From: Candidatus Bathyarchaeota archaeon
GTDB lineage: Archaea > Thermoproteota > Bathyarchaeia > Bathyarchaeales > Bathycorpusculaceae
Direction: 5' to 3'
Assembly (NCBI GenBank): GCA_026414485.1
Contig: JAOAIX010000002.1
Location: 1-64,000 of the forward strand
Length of the DNA stretch: 64,000 bases
Part shown: positions 56,045 to 59,525 of the stretch, in pieces
Layout: each line of letters starts with the position of its first letter
Numbering within the stretch: position 1 is the first letter of the stretch
The notes under the pieces: model-generated
Told to the model about the DNA's origin: nothing
Databases searched by the model: none
Seen by the model: the letters and a program-made list of their open reading frames with translations, nothing else
Translations under genes and position numbers: made by a program

Positions 56045-56689
56045 TTAGGCAGTTATGTGTCCGCTTTTGCGCACTAAGATTATGTAGATGACGGTGGAGG
56101 CACACACCAAAATCGCAACTGAAAATACCGTGGGAAATTCAGGAATTACTGTATCAACTGAGCCTCCCACGTCAGTGTGAGGTATGAAGTTGGCCGGTTC
56201 ACCTTCCGCTGGGAAATCTGCTAGTTCAGTTTGTAGTTTAAGCTCTGAATGCCCAACGCTAATGACTTTGAACGTTACAACTGCAATTGTGCCGCTGCCA
56301 CTAAAGGCCGGCGCAGGATTCTGGGATGTAGCTAAAAGGTGGTAGGTGCCTATTTGTTGGTTCGCGTTGTCTTCTACGATGTAAATGGGCGCCTCTGTTG
56401 TTTCGTGTAGCACACCGTTTTGGTGGGATTCTATACCTAACAAGTGACTTGCGCTAATCACTTGGAGTACAGTATTATTCCAACTTAGAGTTACATCGAC
56501 GCCATAAAGGTTTTGTACATTATTAATAACAATCTTCACCGTAAATGTTTCATCCATAATTGCGGTAACATGTACAGGTTCAACTTCAACAGTTGTTCTT
56601 GCAGTCTGAGCACAAGCAGCACAAAACAAAAGCAAGAACAATAATGCAAACCCTGCCAGCAACAGAATCCTCCTTTTTTGTTGTCTCAT
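56045..56689 (-). CDS. Cohesin-domain surface protein with PEF-CTERM anchor
   Basis: A 214-residue secreted protein. An N-terminal signal peptide (basic MRQQKRR, then a hydrophobic core ending near 28) is followed by a cohesin domain (~35-165: EVEPVHVTAIMDETFTVKIVI, NVQNLYGVDVTLSWNNTVLQV, GTIAVVTFKVISVG). The end is a PEF-CTERM sorting signal: IPEF, a hydrophobic helix and basic VRKS tail, recognised by archaeosortase. It should display a dockerin-binding module on the cell surface. Start overlaps the upstream HTH membrane gene by 4 nt. No archaeosortase gene in the window. Confidence 0.85.
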   Translation of the reverse strand: MRQQKRRILLLAGFALLFLLLFCAACAQTARTTVEVEPVHVTAIMDETFTVKIVINNVQNLYGVDVTLSWNNTVLQVISASHLLGIESHQNGVLHETTEAPIYIVEDNANQQIGTYHLLATSQNPAPAFSGSGTIAVVTFKVISVGHSELKLQTELADFPAEGEPANFIPHTDVGGSVDTVIPEFPTVFSVAILVCASTVIYIILVRKSGHITA

Positions 56690-57627
56690 TGTTGCTCGCC
56701 TTTTGGATTTTCAATCAACATCACTATCTTATCTCTTCCTTTCTTATATCTTCTCACAATGCCCTTCTTTTCGAGGACAGCTAGAAGTTGGCTCGTTTTA
56801 GCCTTGGAGAACCTGCATTTTTCAGTTATTTCCCACTGAAACATGCTTCCACCTGCTGATTTGAGGGTTTTTAGAATTTTTTCTTCTTCGGTTTCAACTT
56901 TAGGAATCTCTGGAAGCTTGTTTATGTTTGTCTCTTTTATTTGTTGCATGCGGCGTTTTGCTAACACGAAACCTAAACTGCCCAATGAAAAAGCCAACAA
57001 TGTGCCCACAACTCCGATAATAAGCATGGCTGTTGGGGCATCACTGTTGCTAACCACGTTAGTATCTGCCAGAACTATGTGAGGGTGACCATTTATGAAA
57101 TATTGGCTTCCCAACCACTTGATTGTCTGTGCTTTATCGTCTCGTTCACTGGGTGCCGGGACCACTGATTGTATAGCCAATTTTTGGGGATAATTAATTT
57201 GCAATGTTCCATCTCCATAAAGAAGACTAAAAAACCCATTAACACCAAAAACATCGCCTACTATAACTTGACCGTTTTGGGCGTAACTAAAATTCGCCCA
57301 AGTAAATATGTACTTAACCGTTTTTGATTGTGTTTCCCACGAAAGAGCAGTATCCATCTGAAGCGACGCGGGAACCACGTTCATTTCACGCTGAGTTTGA
57401 TTCATTGCGGCATTAACAAGATTGGAAACTTTCTGTTGGAACCCGTCCCATGTATCGACTGTGCCGTTAATGTCTAACACCTGAGTTATAATCCACGTGG
57501 CCGAACAGTCTTCAAATACGTCAACAGTGTACTGGGTGTAGACTTGACCCTGAACATAGTTATTTGAAGTAAACAGTAAGATTAACGTCCAAATAACAAC
57601 TGAGCTGCTGACCGCTTTAAAGTGCAT
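56686..57627 (-). CDS. Membrane-bound protein with extracellular domain and cytoplasmic winged-helix domain
   Basis: A protein of about 313 residues: signal-anchor at the N-terminus, extracellular domain ~30-200 resembling DUF4897, one transmembrane helix (~210-235, LIIGVVGTLLAFSLGSLGFVLA), a Lys-rich linker and a C-terminal winged HTH (~250-310, MFQWEITEKCRFSKAKTSQLLAVLEKKGIVRRYKKG). The layout suggests a transmembrane one-component regulator. ATG 57627 is preferred to GTG 57648. Overlaps the cohesin gene by 4 nt, so it may control that surface module. Confidence 0.8.
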   Translation of the reverse strand: MHFKAVSSSVVIWTLILLFTSNNYVQGQVYTQYTVDVFEDCSATWIITQVLDINGTVDTWDGFQQKVSNLVNAAMNQTQREMNVVPASLQMDTALSWETQSKTVKYIFTWANFSYAQNGQVIVGDVFGVNGFFSLLYGDGTLQINYPQKLAIQSVVPAPSERDDKAQTIKWLGSQYFINGHPHIVLADTNVVSNSDAPTAMLIIGVVGTLLAFSLGSLGFVLAKRRMQQIKETNINKLPEIPKVETEEEKILKTLKSAGGSMFQWEITEKCRFSKAKTSQLLAVLEKKGIVRRYKKGRDKIVMLIENPKGEQQ

Positions 57628-57934
57628 TGTACACCTAACATAAGACACTCAAATAGGCTATATTTAAGACTTGTAGCGTCTTCAAAAAAAGTGCTCCCTC
57701 CCGCCGACGGGTGTGGTTGAGTACTCTGTTCTGTGAAAGCGTTTTTAAGGCAAATGCTGTTTAAGGCTCTTGGAAAATAAAAACGGTGTTTATTTGGAAT
57801 TAAACATTTAAATAAACTGTTATGAACTTTTTTGAACTAAATTAAACCCTTTTTGAGGCTTTTGTTTAAAAATGAGGTTAGAAACGGTTTTATTTGTGAA
57901 CTGTTTGGTCTTTTGTGAAAATCAGGTGATCAAA

Positions 57935-58768
57935 ATGAAAAAAACTACAGTCACACTACTATTATTAACAATCGTAGCTTTAGCAAGCTCAAGTATTATT
58001 GTAAACTTTGCCAGTGCCAGATGCACGCCAAATTTTGGATCATTTGTGAGATTCGGTGGTGGTCCTTGGCACTCTAATCAACCTGAATCGCTTAACCTAG
58101 TAAGGATAAATGGGTTGGTTACCAAGTGGGGAACAAGTTCAGTCAACGGCTCTCTTTCAGCTCAAGCTAAAACTGCAGTGTTTAACGTCTCAGATTCCCG
58201 TCAAATGGCTCTCGTCAACGTGATGTGGACAACCAACAGCTTACGCCCCCTAAACGCAGTTAGAACAGCTGAGAACTTCACCTATACGTTTTACTCGGCA
58301 AGACTAAATAACTCCTCTATATCCGCGATCGATCTTGGCTCAACAAACTTCTTCATCAACGGTACATGGAACCTCTATAACGTAACTACCATTGTAACTA
58401 TAACTACAAACAGTCTAGGACAAATAACAAACATTCACCGTGAAACTGACACCAAAGTTGCAATCGCTTACGGCAAACTCACCGTTACAGACAACTGGAC
58501 TACGTTCAAACTAGAAATTTCAGGAATTGCACCGTTATCAGGCACCGTAGCTCGTTCCAGAACCTGTCTCGTGGACTTTAACCCATTCAAATTCAGCGAT
58601 GAAGACGGTGTAACATCAAACCGACTAACCAGAAACGATGTGAGGACTCTTGGAAGAGCATGTGGTTCAATGCCAGGCTGGGGCAACTACGACCAAAGCA
58701 TGGACTTCAACAACAACTACCGCATAGATATAGCTGACTTATGCACAGTTGCAGCTAAAGCCCTCTAA
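57935..58768 (+). CDS. Secreted dockerin-containing protein
   Basis: A 277-residue protein. ATG 57935 follows AGGTGATC and starts a clean signal peptide (MKKTTVTLLLLTIVALASS, cleavage after FASA). The middle ~180 residues are a beta-rich domain of no family I know, with many N-glycosylation sites. The C-terminal ~60 residues contain two dockerin-like calcium loops, DFNPFKFSDEDG and DFNNNYRIDIADL, each followed by a helix (LTRNDVRTLGRA, LCTVAAKAL). It lies divergently next to the cohesin operon, so the two proteins are plausible binding partners. Confidence 0.82.
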   Translation: MKKTTVTLLLLTIVALASSSIIVNFASARCTPNFGSFVRFGGGPWHSNQPESLNLVRINGLVTKWGTSSVNGSLSAQAKTAVFNVSDSRQMALVNVMWTTNSLRPLNAVRTAENFTYTFYSARLNNSSISAIDLGSTNFFINGTWNLYNVTTIVTITTNSLGQITNIHRETDTKVAIAYGKLTVTDNWTTFKLEISGIAPLSGTVARSRTCLVDFNPFKFSDEDGVTSNRLTRNDVRTLGRACGSMPGWGNYDQSMDFNNNYRIDIADLCTVAAKAL

Positions 58769-58847
58769 TCTCCTATCCTTTTTTACGCCTTTGCTTTTTG
58801 ATCTTTTTGTTAAAGTTATAAATTCAAGGATATACTATAAACAACTG

Positions 58848-59036
58848 ATGCTCTTGACTGCTGAGTCACAAAAATCCAAGTTAAATGATACTAACAAGAC
58901 AACAAAGTTACCTTGTGGCTGTGAATATCAGGAAAGTAGCTGGTTGTTAACACGCCTTAGAGAATGTGAGTACCATAAACGAAGACGAACAGCAAAAAGA
59001 CCTTACAGACCCAAAGCTGAATGCGTCCGACCCTGA
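58848..59036 (+). CDS. Small Cys/Arg-rich protein
   Basis: A 62-residue basic protein from ATG 58848, with CGC and a later Cys-His pair (LPCGCEYQESSW ... RECEYHKRRR) that could hold one metal, and an Arg/Lys-rich tail. TATACTATAAAC just upstream may be its TATA box, implying a near-leaderless mRNA. No family recognised; could be nucleic-acid binding. Confidence 0.55.
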   Translation: MLLTAESQKSKLNDTNKTTKLPCGCEYQESSWLLTRLRECEYHKRRRTAKRPYRPKAECVRP

Positions 59037-59129: not shown

Positions 59130-59525
59130 TTAAATGTGAATTGCATCATTTCGTTTTGAAAAAGCGGCAGGGTTTATAGTTGCAACCTCAAGTTTGACTT
59201 TATTTTCTGTTGACATTGTCCTACAAATGAGGTTCAAAGACCCCTCAGTAAAGTTAAGCACTGTCTGGCCTTCAGTTGTTAGGGTATAAACTTTACGTGG
59301 GCGTTCCGAATCCATGTTCCACTCGCTTTTGATGTATCCTTTCTTTTCAAGAGCGTTGAGCAATGGATAGACAGTGCTGGGGCCGAAGTATACGCCAAAG
59401 TTTTTCCGAATCTTCATAATTATTTGGTAGCCATGCATTGGCTGAGCGTCTAGGAATTGAAGGATAATCATGTCTAGCAAGCCTTTGGTTAGCTTTGTTT
59501 GGATTTCTTTTTGAAAGTTTGCCAT
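59130..59525 (-). CDS. PadR-family transcriptional regulator
   Basis: A 131-residue regulator. The PadR winged helix is clear: LDMIILQFLDAQPMHGYQIIMKI, STVYPLLNALEKKGYIKSEWN and the KVYTLTTEG wing. The ~40-residue C-terminal part provides the dimerisation helix. A perfect palindrome lies 40 bp upstream of its start (59565-59589), consistent with autoregulation. Confidence 0.93.
   Translation of the reverse strand: MANFQKEIQTKLTKGLLDMIILQFLDAQPMHGYQIIMKIRKNFGVYFGPSTVYPLLNALEKKGYIKSEWNMDSERPRKVYTLTTEGQTVLNFTEGSLNLICRTMSTENKVKLEVATINPAAFSKRNDAIHI

Follow-up and report, generated by a model that had tools for sequence, protein, structure and literature searches.

A predicted cell-surface signalling cassette in Bathyarchaeia pairs a cohesin and a dockerin-derived protein with a membrane winged-helix regulator

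We describe a conserved three-gene cassette that probably constitutes a dedicated cell-surface signalling system, in which a membrane one-component regulator of a secreted protein (DOC) would read the assembly of DOC with a cohesin. The regulator (HTH) would reside in the membrane and form an oligomer whose cytoplasmic winged helices sit on a single face of the DNA and bind an array of TRAAC repeats. From there, at a fixed distance, HTH would control, and most likely activate, the DOC promoter. Secreted DOC is predicted to be held via its C-terminal dockerin by the cohesin of a third protein (COH), itself anchored in the membrane through its C-terminal segment. The HTH ectodomain would then read the state of the pair, with the cohesin free or occupied, and so tune DOC output to the surface receptor or to DOC's own ligand. 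The reading draws on the genes, their conserved linkage and co-inheritance, a candidate operator with rigid spacing and a cohesin-winged-helix fusion, all observed in the sequences; from these we infer the binding of DOC to COH, the occupation of the operator by HTH, the sensing step and the sign of regulation.

The window analysed here is a stretch of 64,000 nucleotides from a Bathyarchaeia MAG of 1.53 Mb in 33 contigs. The comparative set comprised 257 genomes of the class, in which G-numbers denote genomes and C-numbers contigs. The cassette in the window contains the following features:

56045-56689, minus strand: COH, with a signal peptide, one cohesin domain (residues 36-149), an IPEFP motif and a terminal transmembrane segment
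56686-57627, minus strand: HTH, with a DUF7345 ectodomain, a transmembrane helix at about residues 205-237 (numbering of the longer reading) and a DUF7343 winged helix at 253-311
57657-57672, minus strand: probable TATA region of the HTH-COH operon, assigned by inspection alone
57813-57847, plus strand: candidate operator, four TRAAC repeats with an exact 10-bp period
57880-57893, plus strand: BRE/TATA element of DOC, AGAAACGGTTTTAT, 67 bp from the first TRAAC and conserved in relatives
57935-58768, plus strand: DOC, with a signal peptide, an all-beta N-terminal domain and a C-terminal degenerate dockerin
58595-58759, plus strand: dockerin module of DOC, with boundaries from a model that itself contained the window sequence

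The three genes named in an earlier note on this DNA were all found where it had placed them, with DOC secreted and divergent from HTH-COH as it had described. The 4-nt overlap it reported between HTH and COH is real (ATGA) and occurs identically in six relatives. The listed HTH frame extends to a GTG at 57648, and the ATG at 57627 is the likelier start. For DOC, the listed frame opens at 57872; the ATG at 57935, preceded by the Shine-Dalgarno sequence AGGTGA, is preferred because the ATG at 57872 lies upstream of DOC's own TATA box. An AT-rich TATTTAAGA-like element near HTH was found again in most relatives, by inspection only. Downstream of DOC, a small ORF (58749-59036, plus strand) encodes Cys and His residues (CGCEY...CEYHKRR) and has no Pfam match; its product is perhaps a small metal-binding protein.

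The trio was found again in about 20 genomes, an arrangement far beyond chance. Of the 257 genomes, 24 hold DOC (searched by its N-terminal domain), 26 hold a member of the HTH family and 23 hold both (Fisher p = 1.6e-28, a value that overstates independence since the genomes are related). In every intact case examined, spanning four families, DOC and HTH lie side by side; in G081 and G099 the HTH matches are partial only. Within the named genome collection, every relative of DOC comes from an entry titled Candidatus Bathyarchaeota. A COH search of the relatives, combined with reading of the flanks, revealed a recurrent layout in which HTH and, behind it, COH run divergently from DOC. The cohesin gene of a cassette is located 3' of HTH or 3' of DOC; it follows DOC in G073 and G075, where the proteins contain three and four cohesin matches, respectively (the fourth in G075 being weak). 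G011 encodes HTH, a cohesin protein and a dockerin protein with a different N-terminal domain, so that the dockerin is the constant part. In G109 (L049:3680-5578), the genes 3' of DOC encode a combined cohesin-dockerin protein and another dockerin protein, a gene set that suggests a chain-like surface assembly. Two decaying cassettes were also observed, one in G176 (L159), with an in-frame TAA in DOC and no HTH found, and one in G178 (L160:3982-5732), in which the HTH frame stops before the winged helix and three stops occur there. A mobile or viral origin of the cassette was considered and dropped, as viral contigs hold no relative.

Three genomes (G065, G071 and G179) carry two cassettes each, which we term types A and B. 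Within one genome, A and B are 25-38% identical, while A-A and B-B comparisons between genomes reach 41-66% for all three proteins. The distance matrices of the cassette proteins are correlated (0.83-0.89, with DOC-COH at r = 0.83), a result that shared vertical descent of a linked cassette can produce alone and that it explains in large part. Insulated regulator-operator and cohesin-dockerin pairs would be expected to leave such an A/B pattern. We tentatively put forward the wider idea that cohesin-dockerin recognition serves in archaea as an input for transmembrane signalling, with a regulator family that would read the occupancy of surface cohesins and set the level of its own docked protein, and with parallel insulated channels within one cell; this is plausible and could well prove otherwise.

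The cohesin assignment of COH, which the earlier note had proposed and suggested checking by profile search, is confirmed: the protein scores 40.2 bits against Pfam Cohesin (PF00963), above the curated cut-off of 24.1. A distant PDB match was obtained with the ScaB cohesin 3l8q (E 1.7e-4), and COH was the sole cohesin found in a search of the genome. The same note had read its C-terminus as a PEF-CTERM anchor. Part of this stands, as a PEFP motif is followed by a transmembrane segment, but the tail scores 11.6 bits against TIGR03024 (PEF-CTERM, archaeosortase C substrate), under the cut-off of 23. The PEF motif is also absent from the cassette COH proteins of G109, G087, G065-C2, G071-C1 and G179-C164. 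A search of the genome for an archaeosortase yielded one family gene, on contig 11 (G000:C11, 348 residues), with 49.3 bits against TIGR04178 (cut-off 23). The product reached 35.3 against 100 for the ArtC model, and the subfamily models remained below their cut-offs. Because the PEF-free cassette COH proteins retain a terminal hydrophobic segment, the conserved feature appears to be the membrane anchor, not the sorting signal, and anchoring in the membrane is better supported for COH than sorting by archaeosortase C.

HTH resembles the Pfam DUF7343/DUF7345 proteins in having both domains above cut-off (DUF7345, 47.1 bits; DUF7343 winged helix, 54 bits). With one transmembrane helix and a DNA-binding domain on a single chain, it has the structure of a membrane one-component regulator, and a search of the genome turned up no second member of its family. 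In an AlphaFold2 model (mean pLDDT 84.5), the winged helix finds its matches among MarR-like and AspA-like domains, and the ectodomain weakly resembles Mycobacterium LppM (2nc8; TM-score 0.46). No sequence match to cohesins was detected for the DUF7345 ectodomain in the window. The HTH position of the G027 cassette is taken by a protein that combines a cohesin (Pfam Cohesin, 41.7 bits), a transmembrane segment and a DUF7343 domain (60.9 bits), and an operator-like array is retained. This fusion places the cohesin at the usual site of the sensor domain, and no other single observation hints as strongly at a regulator that reads dockerin binding. A further HTH relative was observed in G087:C64 (L204:3177-4997), on the 3' side of the gene for a secreted and probably coiled-coil protein and with an operator-like site that has two mismatches in the composite operator-promoter pattern; no cohesin or dockerin was seen beside it on this 5.7-kb contig.

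These features bear on a possible, if on balance unlikely, alternative in which the cassette is a structural surface assembly. COH would still anchor DOC, and HTH would control DOC through another signal read by DUF7345, such as envelope state, a solute or a polymer, and not through the pair. The ectodomain in the window, with its weak likeness to LppM and no cohesin sequence match, fits such a role, as does the G087:C64 locus, where a regulator without a visible cohesin or dockerin on a short contig indicates that the regulator is not always dockerin-linked. The G027 fusion, however, ties the regulator to the pair, and G011 keeps both cohesin and dockerin despite the differing N-terminal domain of its DOC-position protein. 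Signalling through the docked pair is the reading that we consider probable.

DOC gave no match to any Pfam or NCBIfam model, falling short of the cut-off for dockerin type I (PF00404), a model that matches 1 of 17 members of the DOC family (E 0.0011). A local dockerin profile was built on 30 Pfam-recognised dockerins from related genomes. Against this profile, the C-terminus of DOC from the window scores 27.9 bits and all 17 members tested score about 24-50 bits. The 75-residue tail alone reaches 32.2 bits, compared with 8.8 for the best of 2000 shuffled copies. Chance likeness was ruled out by this control and by the family-wide matches, and the tail is, on its sequence, dockerin-derived. 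The previous description of DOC as dockerin-like is thus upheld by the local profile, though not by the Pfam model. The DOC dockerin does not show two calcium loops of the form DxNxDGxxxxxD. Loop 1 is degenerate in the window and its clade and better preserved in G109, while loop 2 keeps its ligand positions with Gly6 replaced by Tyr or Phe. In the structure model, the N-terminal domain consists of long antiparallel strands predicted with high confidence, and the dockerin region has low confidence. A PDB search with the N-terminal domain gave no reliable fold match; 8-stranded beta-barrels such as Ail came out best (E 2e-3, TM-score about 0.44) and were not counted as homologues. No enzyme family was matched by DOC.

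Because of the degenerate loop 1 and the aromatic residue in loop 2, cohesin binding by the dockerin of this clade may be altered or lost. An improbable reading is that the tail, either vestigial or kept for calcium binding, no longer binds cohesin at all and that COH has another partner; the missing Pfam match and the low-confidence model at the dockerin agree with it. Against this, the DOC family has conserved both the interhelix motif and the ligand positions of loop 2, and more canonical dockerins occupy the equivalent position in G109, G021 and G011. The correlation of DOC and COH distances (r = 0.83) points the same way, though vertical descent alone would suffice for it. We retain DOC as the predicted ligand of COH. 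The genome carries one dockerin of the DOC type. The earlier note had also proposed looking for more dockerins, and one further Pfam dockerin was found (C11:110635); it lies inside a protein of 532 residues, seems unconnected with the cassette and was not counted as part of it.

The TRAAC array is a cis element that the earlier note overlooked. In the DOC-HTH intergenic region, 0 of 200 dinucleotide shuffles reached the score of the window, and a three-repeat TRAAC pattern with at most one mismatch has no other occurrence in the genome. Each of the 17 type-A cassettes has 67 bp between the first TRAAC and the BRE/TATA of DOC. In the window, the DOC transcript is predicted to begin about 25 bp 3' of 57893. 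In 9 of 10 further cassettes, across genera and families and including the fusion cassette, array and promoter are 66-68 bp apart; G071-C1 has no promoter match, and a permissive pattern was used for the outgroup matches. In column conservation, the operator (1.34 bits) and the promoter (1.46 bits) exceed the sequence upstream (0.33 bits). The composite operator-promoter site, with at most one mismatch, has 18 occurrences in the 257 genomes, every one in an HTH-bearing genome; 17 belong to DOC cassettes. The third TRAAC is absent from type-B operators and from G109 and G087. The helical phasing of the array and its rigid position 5' of BRE/TATA suggest that an oligomer binds there and contacts the transcription machinery, which would mean activation. 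An inverted repeat near 57790 (GTTTATTT...AAATAAAC) was the first operator candidate and was dropped, since the direct-repeat array is the conserved element.

Two other sites were noted. In G065:C26 (L169:2779-4180), a second site of like layout (66 bp) precedes the gene of a probable secreted beta-helix protein that is broken into two overlapping frames of 126 and 306 residues; this gene is possibly a further member of the regulon. In G177:C47 (L202:5320-5380), an orphan composite site with one mismatch has no downstream same-strand ORF of at least 80 residues, and is perhaps the remnant of a lost cassette.

That the array is read by an unlinked regulator, for instance a PadR-type or global factor, with HTH acting elsewhere, seems decidedly improbable. 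A PadR gene does lie near DOC (window 59130-59525, minus strand), likewise in three relatives of the genus, but it was not seen by the cassettes of the other genera examined, where HTH is. Sites with at most one mismatch are, moreover, confined to HTH-bearing genomes, and the operator layouts of types A and B differ within one cell, as do the HTH proteins. HTH remains our candidate for the factor that binds the array. A small cellulosome, a scaffold gathering enzymes, is hardly credible: cohesin and dockerin are cellulosome parts and G073 and G075 encode multi-cohesin cassette proteins, but here there is one single-cohesin protein, one dockerin of the DOC type and a DOC without an enzyme match, and we reject it for this genome, which lacks a multi-cohesin scaffoldin with dockerin-bearing enzymes. 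Taken as a whole, the earlier proposal is partly supported. Its core, a cohesin-dockerin unit under HTH control, has good backing from comparative genomics, with the conserved trio, the G027 fusion, the operator and the matched paralogues in its favour; capture of DOC by COH, sensing through the HTH ectodomain and the direction of control stay predictions.

If the signalling reading is correct, a family of archaeal regulators reads the occupancy of a surface cohesin. With a dedicated pair, a membrane regulator and a promoter element in hand, a role in surface signalling or in self-regulated assembly is directly testable, and the test system is small, consisting of three small proteins and a 35-bp operator.

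Among the literature within reach, which mostly excludes subscription journals, no paper was found that names DUF7343 or DUF7345 or treats the combination seen in the cassette. Non-cellulosomal cohesins and dockerins have been described in archaea, including Archaeoglobus and ANME (PMC9012536, PMC5244752), in hosts that, like those of the cassette, are not known for cellulose degradation. Their function outside the cellulosome is called unknown in PMC5244752, and a dedicated regulator, an operator or a cohesin-winged-helix fusion is not described in the accessible text of either paper. In Clostridium thermocellum, RsgI anti-sigma factors link sensing of the outside to cellulosome genes (PMC12203970, PMC4711584). 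The likeness lies in a transmembrane protein that senses outside, as predicted here, and controls the genes of a cohesin-dockerin machine. RsgI differs in being an anti-sigma factor that acts by proteolysis and senses substrates, whereas in the cassette the membrane protein itself carries the DNA-binding domain and no sigma factor is involved.

ArnR and ArnR1 of Sulfolobus are membrane-bound one-component regulators with two ArnR boxes upstream of BRE/TATA; ArnR is a membrane activator, and the box fragment spans -43 to -84 of flaB (PMC6396743). They resemble HTH as archaeal, membrane-tethered HTH proteins with boxes 5' of BRE/TATA, and they control surface structures and form oligomers, as we propose from sequence for the cassette. 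Unlike the cassette HTH, they have an N-terminal HTH and a putative HAMP region, and PMC6396743 describes no cohesin or dockerin partner. Their boxes are inverted repeats (TCGAC-N5-GTCGA), in contrast to the direct-repeat array of the cassette. The cassette would extend the short list of known archaeal membrane one-component regulators by one with a predicted operator.
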